Below are positions 52,552 through 54,824 of a DNA stretch of 61,350 bases, piece by piece. The translations under genes and the position numbers were made by a program. Each line of letters begins with the position of its first letter. The first letter of the stretch is position 1. The notes under the pieces are model-generated. The model worked only from the letters and a program-made list of their open reading frames with translations. It searched no databases and was not told where the DNA came from. Source of the stretch: Bacillota bacterium (lineage in GTDB: Bacteria; Bacillota; Clostridia; Clostridiales; Clostridiaceae); assembly GCA_021781655.1 (NCBI GenBank), contig JAJXWJ010000012.1, forward strand, positions 1-61,350, in the 5' to 3' direction.

Positions 52552-52693
52552 CAAATATCGGTTTATTATCTATTCCGACATCATCATCCGACACTATAAA
52601 ATTATTAGTACAATGATAACACATTATTCACTCATAAATCAATAGTGTTATATAAAATTTTAAATTTGTAATTTAAAATTTATGAATAAAACC

Positions 52694-52905
52694 TGCTATA
52701 CTAAAGCAAGGGTTGGTTAAAGAAGTTTCCTGACTATCTCATCGCAACCAGCATATAAGTTGAATTGATTTTTAAAATAAAAGAAACTAGTAAAGGGTGA
52801 AGGATTATATATCAAGGCTTCACCCTTTATTAATGGGTTCAACTTAGTTGCTATTGTGTTGATCTCGATAATAGGAGTAAGCCCCCAGTAAGGATGGTGT
52901 AGAAA
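52694..52905 (+). promoter_or_regulatory. Promoter and long structured leader of the 114-residue secreted protein
   Basis: An extended -10 (TGCTATACT, 52694-52702) is followed by about 200 nt of leader with strong pairing potential. GGTTG (52711-52715) pairs with CAACC (52745-52749). A 14-bp helix forms between 52751-52764 and 52838-52851 with two internal mismatches. Inside it an 11-bp hairpin forms between AAAGGGTGAAG (52792) and CTTCACCCTTT (52818). A C-rich tail (GTAAGCCCCCAGTAAGG) precedes the start codon. I do not recognise a known riboswitch consensus. Confidence 0.6.
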
Positions 52906-52907
52906 AT

Positions 52908-53252
52908 ATGTTACGCTTAAAGAATGGTACGAAAAAGTTTGGTATTTCTATATTATTTGTTGTAACATTAATGTTAACTATTTCAATTGTTAGTATTGAT
53001 GTATTTGCAAAAAACAATTCAAATACTACAACTTCAAAGTCAGCTGTAATTAGTAGTCTACAAAAAACTAGTGAATCAACAAATAAAATTGTTCAGCAAG
53101 GAACTCAAGCAGTAAATTATTCTCAAGAAGATTTACAAAATTATATTAAGCAGAATCCAGAAGAATTCGATAAAAATAATGCAGCTAATATTTTAACTGA
53201 CTATATGAAATCAAAAAATTTAGACCATCTTACTGCTGAATCTAATAATTAA
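52908..53252 (+). CDS. Small secreted protein, unknown function
   Basis: 114 residues. A basic N-terminus (MLRLKNGTKKFG) and hydrophobic stretch (ISILFVVTLMLTISIVSI) are followed by DVFAKN, a plausible signal peptidase I site. The mature part of about 80 residues is polar, rich in Asn, Ser, Thr and Gln, with no cysteine. It includes a mildly amphipathic tail (YSQEDLQNYIKQNPEEFDKN). I know no family for it. The unusually long leader suggests RNA-level control. AAGGA is 13 nt before the ATG. Confidence 0.7.
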   Translation: MLRLKNGTKKFGISILFVVTLMLTISIVSIDVFAKNNSNTTTSKSAVISSLQKTSESTNKIVQQGTQAVNYSQEDLQNYIKQNPEEFDKNNAANILTDYMKSKNLDHLTAESNN

Positions 53253-53294
53253 AAATACAAATGAATAATAAAAAAAATATTAAGTATTACAAAT

Positions 53295-53373
53295 TGGGGT
53301 ATTGCCAACATTTCCGACAAAACCCACGCTAAAGCATAAAATAGGAAAAATTTTAAAATTCACCTACGTTAAG
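53295..53373. repeat. Dispersed repeat, copy A
   Basis: Shares with copy B (54094-54172) the start TGGGGT, an exact 28-bp core from GCCAACATTTCC to CCCACGCTAA, and the ending AC(C)(C/T)ACGTTAAG. Spacing between the CCCACGCTAA and C(C/T)ACGTTAAG words is alike. The gap 53253-53719 otherwise holds the hairpin at 53617 and AT-rich DNA. Confidence 0.8.
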
Positions 53374-53616
53374 CCGGTTATCAATGATACACAATGTACT
53401 TTTGTCACATTCAAACTCCTTATTTATCAAGGTTTTTCAATTCTATACCCAAAATAGTACCATAGTGTAAAAATATTTCAAAGGTTAAAGGATTAGGTAA
53501 CCTATTTTGTTAGATTATTGATAATTGCTATAGTTTAGTAACGTAAATTTGAATATATAATTCTAAACATAAAAGAGGAAAAAAGATGTATAAATTTATA
53601 TTTTAAGAGAAGAAAG

Positions 53617-53649
53617 TCAATTACCACCAGCTTAGCTGGTGGTAATTGA
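53617..53649. repeat. Perfect 15-bp hairpin
   Basis: TCAATTACCACCAGC-TTA-GCTGGTGGTAATTGA (each arm 15 bases). There is no T-tract on either side (TTGGACGTAAAA follows), so it is not a normal terminator. It recalls the subterminal hairpins of IS200/IS605-like elements. Confidence 0.75.
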
Positions 53650-53719
53650 TTGGACGTAAAAACGCTCGTTTATAGATAAATATATGATATATTGTGATTA
53701 TACAAGGAGGATATGTTTT

Positions 53720-53935
53720 ATGAAAATAATTAAGGAATTTTATAAATTTAGACAGAATGGATTGAAATTTGTATTTCTCACTTTAGTGTTTGCTATAATT
53801 ACTGGAATTTTAAGTTTTCAATCTAACAAAATGGTTTCTAAAACCTTGTATGCAGGTTCATCAATCCTATTTTTTTGTAGTACAATATATACAACTTTTT
53901 ATTTTATAAGAGAGTTCATTAAATCAAAAAAATAA
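53720..53935 (+). CDS. Small two-helix membrane protein, unknown function
   Basis: About 71 residues: a basic N-terminal segment MKIIKEFYKFRQNGLK, two membrane helices (FVFLTLVFAIITGILSF and TLYAGSSILFFCSTIYTTFY) and a basic end (REFIKSKK). GGAGG lies 9 nt before ATG 53720-53722; the frame reaches 53684 but without a ribosome-binding site. No family recognised. Its neighbours are repeats and gene remnants. Confidence 0.6.
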   Translation: MKIIKEFYKFRQNGLKFVFLTLVFAIITGILSFQSNKMVSKTLYAGSSILFFCSTIYTTFYFIREFIKSKK

Positions 53936-54000
53936 AAATAATTGAATTTAAAAAGTTGAATATGGATTTTCATGTAAATATAAATTTTTTATTGTTATAG

Positions 54001-54030
54001 TTTAACTTATATATTACTATATAAGTTAAA
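54001..54030. promoter_or_regulatory. Perfect 13-bp inverted repeat, candidate operator
   Basis: TTTAACTTATATA-TTAC-TATATAAGTTAAA lies 9-22 bp upstream of a GAGGAG ribosome-binding site and the truncated gene at 54053. It looks like a repressor operator overlapping a promoter. Confidence 0.55.
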
Positions 54031-54052
54031 TTATATACGAGGAGTGTTATAT

Positions 54053-54142
54053 TTGAAGTATTTACCTAAAAAGTATGTATGTATAAAACAGCATGGGGTG
54101 ACGCCAACATTTCCGACAAAACCCACGCTAAGCAAAAAATGA
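54053..54142 (+). pseudogene. Start of a small gene cut off by repeat copy B
   Basis: GAGGAG lies 8 nt before a TTG start. The first 13-14 codons (MKYLPKKYVCIKQ) are gene-like, then the frame enters repeat copy B and reads GVTPTFPTKPTLSKK to TGA at 54140-54142. The good ribosome-binding site and upstream palindrome suggest that a real gene was interrupted here. Confidence 0.55.
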
Positions 54143-54172
54143 GCAGAAAGTTTAATTTCTACCCACGTTAAG
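54094..54172. repeat. Dispersed repeat, copy B
   Basis: See copy A (53295-53373). The copies agree over the first half and at the final ACGTTAAG and differ in the AT-rich middle. Copy B begins inside a small reading frame and is followed by a 24-bp perfect palindrome at 54186-54209 (arms TTGATTACCAAT). Confidence 0.8.
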
Positions 54173-54185
54173 ACGTTCTTTTATG

Positions 54186-54209
54186 TTGATTACCAATATT
54201 GGTAATCAA
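54186..54209. repeat. 24-bp perfect palindrome
   Basis: Arms TTGATTACCAAT and ATTGGTAATCAA without a spacer, 14 bp past repeat copy B. The remaining DNA to 54440 has only a small hairpin-like stretch near 54340 and no gene I can support. Confidence 0.6.
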
Positions 54210-54440
54210 TAATATTGCTTTGATAACCACTGGCTATGCGCAACATCATAAACTTAAGAAATTTTTATTAGTACGTTAAAATGATTCGCAGTGAATATTG
54301 AATATTTCTATATATTGGATATAAAAAAGAGCATAAGAATCCGTTGATTAAAAAAATGGATTTTTTGCTCTCTTATTATTATTGGTTTCTATTAATATCC
54401 TAATAATTTTTTTTGAACAATCCTATAGCTATATTTTCGT

Positions 54441-54824
54441 TTACTCGAACTGGATGCTTGTATTGGTACATTTCTTTTCCTTTAATTCGCTAACAATTTC
54501 AGGATGGTTTTTCTTTATTTTAGCTATTCTAGAGCTAGTATGTATTAATTTTTTAGCTTCATCCATTTTAGTCATAAGCCCGCGCTCTTTTTTATAATCA
54601 TTTGAAGATAATTTAAACAAATATTTAATATTATTTTTTTCTAAGAAATTAACAAATTCAATAGAAGGATATCCTCTATCAAATATTATGATAATTTGAT
54701 GATTGTTAAGGAGTTCTTTTACTGCATTAATATTTTCTTTGGCTAATTCACTTTCACTGGATTTTATAGAACCTATTTGTAAATCTAAAAAGAAGTGATT
54801 ATATACATCGAATATCGAAAACTT
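54441..54824 (-). pseudogene. Decayed DDE (IS4-like) transposase fragment
   Basis: The minus strand encodes about 127 codons from FSIFDVYNHFFLDLQIGS through IIIIFDRGYPSIEFVNFLEK and KYLFKLSSNDYKKERG to a stop at 54441-54443. These are the middle and catalytic part of an IS4-type transposase (second Asp in FDRGYPS). The N-terminus and the last part are missing; downstream the sequence RVNENIAIGLFKK continues in another frame, so there is also a frameshift. No terminal inverted repeats were identified. The gap 54825-55181 holds only the terminator at 55021. Confidence 0.8.

Follow-up and report, generated by a model that had tools for sequence, protein, structure and literature searches.

The two copies of an approximately 79-bp repeat which lie 799 bp apart and in direct orientation in the 61,350-nt stretch of DNA analysed here (the window) are very probably orphan ends of Tn3-family transposons, each copy consisting of a terminal inverted repeat (IR) of 38 bp and, separated from it by a spacer of 28 nt, a repetition of the innermost 12 bp of this IR (the half-site). 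The source elements were, with equally high confidence, two Tn3-family transposons or transposase-less miniatures thereof (TIMEs), and the subgroup to which the ends belong has its relatives in Tn1546, in mer transposons known from Bacillota and in a transposon of clostridia. While the window locus as such is no more than an ordinary scar, the shape of the 79-bp unit points to a conserved transposon-end extension in the Tn1546-like/mer branch. Both copies, A (53295-53376) and B (54094-54175), are found on the + strand and share 78% identity over 82 nt, as expected from the preliminary description of two such copies. The exact core common to both, GCCAACATTTCCGACAAAACCCACGCTAA, was confirmed as well, its length however being 29 bp and not the 28 bp given there. 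The features of the locus are compiled in Table 1.

Table 1. Features of the repeat locus, given as positions of the window.
Feature	Position	Strand	Remarks
Copy A IR	53296..53333	+	GGGG outer end at left; last base A, not G; 1 mismatch to consensus in 35 scored positions
Copy A half-site ACCTACGTTAAG	53362..53373	+	displaced inner 12 bp of IR, 28 nt inside IR end
Putative tyrosine-recombinase core GATACACAATGTACTTTTGTCAC, copy A interior	53386..53408	+	near-palindrome; 4/23 mismatches to palindromic core of MITE family
Gene of 71-aa small protein	53720..53935	+	no Pfam family above cut-off; 70% identical homologue in G025
Dyad upstream of truncated gene	53996-54035	.	arms of 18 nt, 94% complementary; putative operator or terminator
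Gene stub, probably of peptidase-C39 ABC exporter	54053..54094	+	truncated by copy B; 14 codons left, (M)KYLPKKYVCIKQH
Copy B IR	54095..54132	+	GGGG at left; 0 mismatches in 35 scored positions; gives stub gene its new 3' end
Terminator-like hairpin with T tail	54139..54166	-	overlaps copy B half-site; strand is tnpA strand in intact relatives
Copy B half-site ACCCACGTTAAG	54161..54172	+	28 nt inside IR end
Transposase remnant	54444-54824	-	truncated at its start; DDE_Tnp_1 domain (E 4.6e-8); directly right of copy B

The repeat is not confined to this place, whereas its occurrence here only had been named as an outcome that would refute the preliminary interpretation. A 20-mer of the repeat was found twice in the window when up to three mismatches were allowed (no match in 100 shuffles) and twice in the 3.71-Mb assembly with up to two, and an exact scan with one genome per species identified it in 42 other genome stretches and in two contigs of a viral collection. 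The flanks of these 44 loci, whose inspection had likewise been proposed, bounded a unit of 38 bp that starts with GGGGT and ends with CTAAG; one locus (L033) is without the GGGG end, and at four of the 44 (L010, L018, L021, L039) the 20-mer lies within unrelated sequence. Blastn of 53250-54250 against phages and plasmids returned no homologues. With up to three mismatches, 56 sites of the IR were counted in 32 of 206 family genomes, the two of the window included, as compared to no site in the 206 genomes for a reversed-pattern control. In Clostridium tyrobutyricum (L031), inverted IRs at 676 and 6033, 5358 bp apart, bracket tnpA and a resolvase gene, the encoded proteins being a transposase of 985 aa (DDE_Tnp_Tn3, PF01526, E 2.3e-153) and a serine resolvase of 186 aa (PF00239, E 6.2e-44). 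The same two genes lie within 4596 bp in L024, and tnpA was located inside the same end also in L004, L013, L073 and L078. As inverted pairs enclose tnpA and the resolvase gene in L031 and L024, the repeat is identified as the terminal IR of a Tn3-family subgroup, and it has the Tn3-type form of about 38 bp with a GGGG start and a TAAG end, copy A ending with TAAA. The earlier view of copy B, and of the repeat as such, as the end of a mobile element is hence borne out by the same IR flanking tnpA in relatives, while the suggestion of an unrecognised insertion sequence found no support, the end beside tnpA in relatives being one of the Tn3 family. IS21-like ends and prophage attachment sites had been first guesses and were dropped once tnpA was found beside the same end.

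A weight-matrix scan of the window revealed no inverted partner end but only the two + strand ends, which scored 59 and 65, the next best score of about 6 being within the shuffle range. With up to 15 mismatches to two end types, the next best sites of the window after A and B have 15, and no end beyond A and B was found in the genome with up to three mismatches, a threshold which a weakly conserved partner could escape. Tblastn gave no credible match to tnpA or tnpR in the window. As no partner, no tnpA and no resolvase gene were found, A and B are taken as orphan ends, and the window holds no complete Tn3 transposon, i.e., no tnpA and resolvase gene between two inverted IRs. Without a partner end in the window, a whole TIME, which would be a tnpA-less pair of inverted IRs with some hundred bp in between, was ruled out at A and at B. 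Such elements do occur in relatives, namely as tnpA-less IR pairs 164-396 bp apart in family genomes, in a Desulfosporosinus MAG and in a Bacteroidales MAG. The small non-autonomous element considered in the preliminary description thus has complete counterparts with these ends in relatives, but does not describe A and B, which are single ends. As to the 5-bp target duplication expected of a Tn3-family transposon, among the pairs of the relatives the same 5 bp (ATTAT) flank both sides in L026 (164 bp) only, most others being without such flanks. The sole trace of a Tn3 transposase found in the genome is a 35-aa tnpA fragment on contig C160 with 80% identity to the L031 TnpA. On this contig (G000; L047/L048) the fragment is cut by an inverted pair of another end type, GGGGTATGGCAACGATTCG..., and behind the relic lies a gene of the Phage_integrase family, upstream of which there is a palindrome resembling a core site. 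The DDE_Tnp_1 remnant next to copy B is presumably of IS4 type. Each of the two ends would have arisen by replicative transposition, in which TnpA joins the IR to the target, and after joining the rest of the element would have been lost, leaving a single end.

Copy B entered a resident gene, as homology to intact exporters reaches B and is cut there. The truncated ORF starts with TTG (54053-54055), retains 14 native codons with the last one, H, at 54092-54094, and continues with the IR-derived codons GVTPTFPTKPTLSKK to a TGA at 54140-54142; the small truncated gene is hence real, and the dyad described upstream of it is present, too (Table 1). A degenerate DNA pattern for KYVCIKQH identified, among 206 genomes, one beside the window's own (G143), and with the DNA of 53936-54094 as query, 87 of the 206 genomes showed matches, most of which are taken to be short AT-rich matches and one of which (G023) extends to the joint. 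Both the G143 and the G023 match run on as intact exporters (MKNPFKKYICIKQHDLKDCGAACLATISKQYG... and ...KKYVCIKQHDIKDCAAACLATISKQYG...), the intact homologues of the stub having a Peptidase_C39 and ABC architecture (KYICIKQHDLKDCGAACLA), whereby Peptidase_C39 and ABC_membrane domains were both found in the first of them (L101). The DNA alignments of the stub to both exporters end at 54095, the first IR base, whose G equals the G of the next exporter codon; the joint is 54094/54095. With this, an intact version of the gene and the insertion joint, both of which had been called for, are at hand, the truncation by copy B is confirmed, and the gene start, which had been considered as potentially specific to the repeat, occurs without it in two relatives. 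The 14 codons left and the bases preceding them match the intact genes, and judged from this homology the interrupted gene probably encoded a peptidase-C39 ABC exporter of the bacteriocin type. The gene of the 71-aa protein, which is situated between the two copies, shares 84% identity at the DNA level with a homologue in G025 located about 3 kb from an ORF that resembles a double-glycine peptide; for this reason a locus of the bacteriocin type is likely. Contig C10 of G000 (L157/L165 1-2991) encodes the C-terminal part (511 aa) of a related exporter, open at the contig start and 70% identical to L101, which may be a second exporter or the other part of the stub gene; a C39 part for it was not found in the assembly. 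On C10, an ORF resembling an exporter accessory protein follows, and another broken exporter is represented by an isolated piece of peptidase C39, within a frame of 74 aa, on another contig (G000, C108:46243-46419).

Two direct ends 799 bp apart that are the only two of their genome are unlikely to be two random insertions, and such a direct, close pair runs against Tn3 target immunity. It may therefore be asked whether A and B go back to the local duplication of a single end, or whether they border, as direct repeats, a composite unit resembling a TIME-COMP, by which the 71-aa gene and the exporter promoter were moved together; TIME-COMPs bounded by directly oriented TIMEs have been reported (PMC13367494). 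The finding of only two copies in 3.71 Mb, close by and in the same orientation, agrees with this, and direct IR pairs within 5 kb (a limit chosen after seeing the list) occur in three of 206 genomes (G000, G076, G150) as compared to about 0.045 expected at random. Both versions are nevertheless considered improbable, given that the exporter homology runs up to B and stops there, B having entered a resident gene, that the 28-nt spacers of A and B have diverged and that their interiors differ: A leads into a recombinase-like core, whereas the inner 39-68 nt of B weakly resemble the ends L080, L024, L004 and L031 (E 0.0003-0.01). Hairpins in the repeat units might furthermore suggest a structured or regulatory RNA, or a promoter element common to two neighbouring genes, yet the unit adjoins the tnpA 3' end in intact elements and none of the 12 weak matches obtained in an Rfam scan of 52600-54500 reached the gathering score, by which a structured RNA was rejected and this explanation as a whole became hardly credible.

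Beyond the identification of A and B as Tn3-family ends, the half-site is the feature that sets the 79-bp repeat apart from a plain IR. It copies IR positions 27-38 and lies 40-41 bp, or near four helical turns, away from the original within the IR. Of the paired words CCCACGCTAA and CC(C/T)ACGTTAAG, formerly read as recognition sites or RNA stems, one is the inner IR end and the other its displaced copy, in line with the first of these readings. From 84 distinct IR matches, 73 ends were taken, which had no more than six mismatches, two or three G at positions 2-4 and an inner sequence of 90 nt or longer, and a half-site with up to two mismatches was found 15-45 nt inside at 47 of these, 38 times at exactly 28 or 29 nt, as compared to a mean of 12.5 and a maximum of 25 in shuffles. 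The half-site is present at all six ends at which tnpA terminates 59-61 nt inside the IR, and likewise in L019, where a broken tnpA lies 868 nt inside. A hand count of the 12 IR pairs with both ends scored gave eight with the half-site at one end (L031, L015, L026, L035, two in L065, L068, L060), two with it at both (L016, L024) and two at neither (L003, L027); a location at one end only is hence a tendency.

For a wider comparison, tnpA-side ends were taken from plasmids and other genomes. Among 24 related elements (Tn1546-like, mer, clostridial), whose TnpA C-terminus is 69-100% identical to that of L031, the 12-mer of the respective IR recurs at offset 28/29, with at most four mismatches, in 23, L150 with five being the single miss, as opposed to none of eight distant elements (34-63% identity); shuffles of the 32-element set gave a mean of 0.18 and a maximum of 2. 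In four of the eight distant elements (L109, L110, L111, L113) tnpA extends into the IR, so that non-coding sequence which could accommodate a half-site is lacking. The set does not comprise L019 (broken tnpA, no IR candidate), L139 and L144 (no IR candidate), L136 (the same element as L013) and L073, whose IR begins with TGGG and was missed by the pattern, but which has the half-site in the 73-end scan; L135 (the L031 element) and L112 (whose tnpA has no IR in its vicinity and is followed by another transposase) were not among the scanned tnpA-side ends. In a C-terminal tree of 33 elements and 146 columns, with L150 labelled as bearer, the half-site bearers cluster, the distribution requiring three changes (0 of 500 shuffles as low) on weak forks. 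Pairs of IR and half-site such as ...ACAACGCTAAG with ACAACGTTAAG, CGTACGCTAAG with TGTACGCTAAG and CCCACGCTAAG with CCCACTCTAAG document that the half-site tends to follow the element's own IR sequence: in 18 distinct pairs, the left six letters of the IR 12-mer and the half-site differ by 1.56 mismatches within elements versus 2.35 when permuted (P ~0.0001, kinship among elements ignored). A search for more tnpA loci in viral contigs yielded 20 stretches that fit a pattern, none of which was confirmed, and a sequence taken as the Tn4430 IR matched four plasmid records, the one inspected being without annotated tnpA.

As to the function of the half-site, the Tn4430 transposase structure provides a reference, for which it is reported that TnpA reads box A in trans, that DBD2 and DBD4 read the start of box B1 and that DBD1, the key specificity determinant, reads box B2, with base contacts at positions 21-36 (PMC9579193). 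As the half-site copies IR positions 27-38, DBD1 might bind it; it would cover most of what DBD1 reads, these positions being those of the TnpA of another element, and it is without box A, the part where cleavage occurs. By this analogy TnpA may well bind the half-site, which would then represent an accessory docking site, located mostly at the tnpA-side end and partly overlapping a probable tnpA terminator. Such a site could load TnpA on the tnpA-side end first or hold a second protomer, by which the two transposon ends would become non-equivalent. A more far-reaching proposal, put forward tentatively and with less confidence than the binding as such, is that the whole subgroup (Tn1546, mer, clostridial) possesses asymmetric ends, the tnpA-side one bearing, some four helical turns further in, an additional DBD1 half-site that is not cleavable, that would recruit extra transposase for one-end-first assembly or target immunity and that miniatures would need to move. 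If a second docking site exists in this subgroup, the transposon end is incomplete in constructs that reach only a little beyond the IR, and a candidate DNA determinant would be available for the asymmetric assembly of transpososomes.

The half-site sits shortly past the tnpA stop codon and might instead not be a transposase site at all but be conserved only as one arm of the tnpA terminator. Where tnpA lies 59-61 nt inside, i.e., at six ends, the spacer together with the half-site forms a fold of -8.1 to -17.8 kcal/mol on the tnpA strand, the strongest hairpin of all ends being that of L080 (-18.4 kcal/mol). Over the 29 ends with the half-site at offset 29 and at most two mismatches, covariation of the dyad was 0.247 versus 0.168 when shuffled (a value reached in 0 of 500 shuffles), and the share of paired cells was 71.3% versus 67.2% (2 of 500), best at slide 0, whereas pair-count and pair-type measures were weaker (62 and 20 of 500 shuffles), RNAalifold predicted no consensus structure over the same ends and a consensus terminator scan of L031 did not report the hairpin. 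Moreover, the CTAAG part of the half-site is outside the stem, and a resemblance to the element's own IR at a fixed offset is at odds with a mere terminator arm. Among the seven complete small elements (L015, L026, L035, two in L065, L068, L060), only the half-site end of L026 folds so, with a shorter hairpin. As tnpA-less small elements thus keep the half-site but mostly not the hairpin, a DNA site is favoured and a role as terminator arm only is held to be rather unlikely, although in tnpA-bearing elements the half-site probably does overlap the tnpA terminator.

The nearest known elements are Tn1546 and the mer transposons of the Tn5084/TnMERI1 type, which have the same 38-bp GGGG...TAAG IR. 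Two plasmid elements, L104, which has mer genes nearby, and L105, which adjoins genes of the vanA cluster, would by gene content be of the Tn5084/TnMERI1 and the Tn1546 type, respectively; both carry the half-site at the same offset of the tnpA-side end, and TnpA of these types is 59-63% identical over 99% of the L031 TnpA. As compared to Tn1546 and the mer transposons, the window keeps one end each, without tnpA, resolvase gene or recognised passenger genes. For TnARS1 of Bacillus sp. MB24, the published description gives a pair of 78-bp IRs with GGGG start and TAAG end as well as 5-bp direct repeats (PMC6920998). By length (78 = 38 + 28 + 12) and ends, this 78-bp IR is probably a 38-bp IR plus displaced half-site, present at both ends in TnARS1 as opposed to mostly one end here. 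TIMEs are inverted pairs without tnpA, described from Pseudomonas and Enterobacteriaceae in the portions of the papers at hand (PMC4133298, PMC13367494), from which A and B differ in having no partner end. Tn5401 is reported to possess an additional TnpI-binding repeat near each end (PMC7157771); these extra sites serve the recombinase TnpI, whereas the half-site copies the transposase IR. The structural work gives TnpA recognition sequences as 38-bp, and in the open-licence literature, as far as its text was accessible, a displaced half-site of the IR was not found to be described for this Tn3 subgroup. At the tnpA-side ends of L106 and L114 (Enterococcus and Listeria Tn3), the middle part of the IR recurs in inverted form directly behind the IR (GGGAATTTGTA / TACAAATTCCC in L106), which makes a hairpin that derives from the IR in a different manner.

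Inside copy A, the near-palindrome GATACACAATGTACTTTTGTCAC may be a TnpI-like recombination core of the kind used by the Tn4430/Tn5401 (TnpI) group, its accessory repeats not being recognised. The 50-65 bp around it match six other family genomes, and at least five of nine distinct matching loci lie in miniature elements with other terminal repeats, two of which were measured (274-277 bp). A similar palindrome is found upstream of the Phage_integrase-family (tyrosine recombinase) gene on C160. The MITE family in question is of about 275 bp (L067, L130-L133; G075, G077, G082, G083) and has ends such as TGGGTGCTTTTACCTTACCCGCCAAAAAGGTATATTAG as well as a palindromic recombinase-like core. In the window, 53617-53649 forms a perfect 16-bp inverted repeat with a 1-nt loop (ACCACCAGCT/AGCTGGTGGT), terminator-like on the - strand, which was found nowhere else in the genome and hence is single copy; the stretch 53572-53640 matches four other family genomes. 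In L007 (3109-3671), an IR end with half-site is followed by the gene of a 92-aa RelB-family antitoxin (PF04221, E 7.6e-12), a possible passenger.
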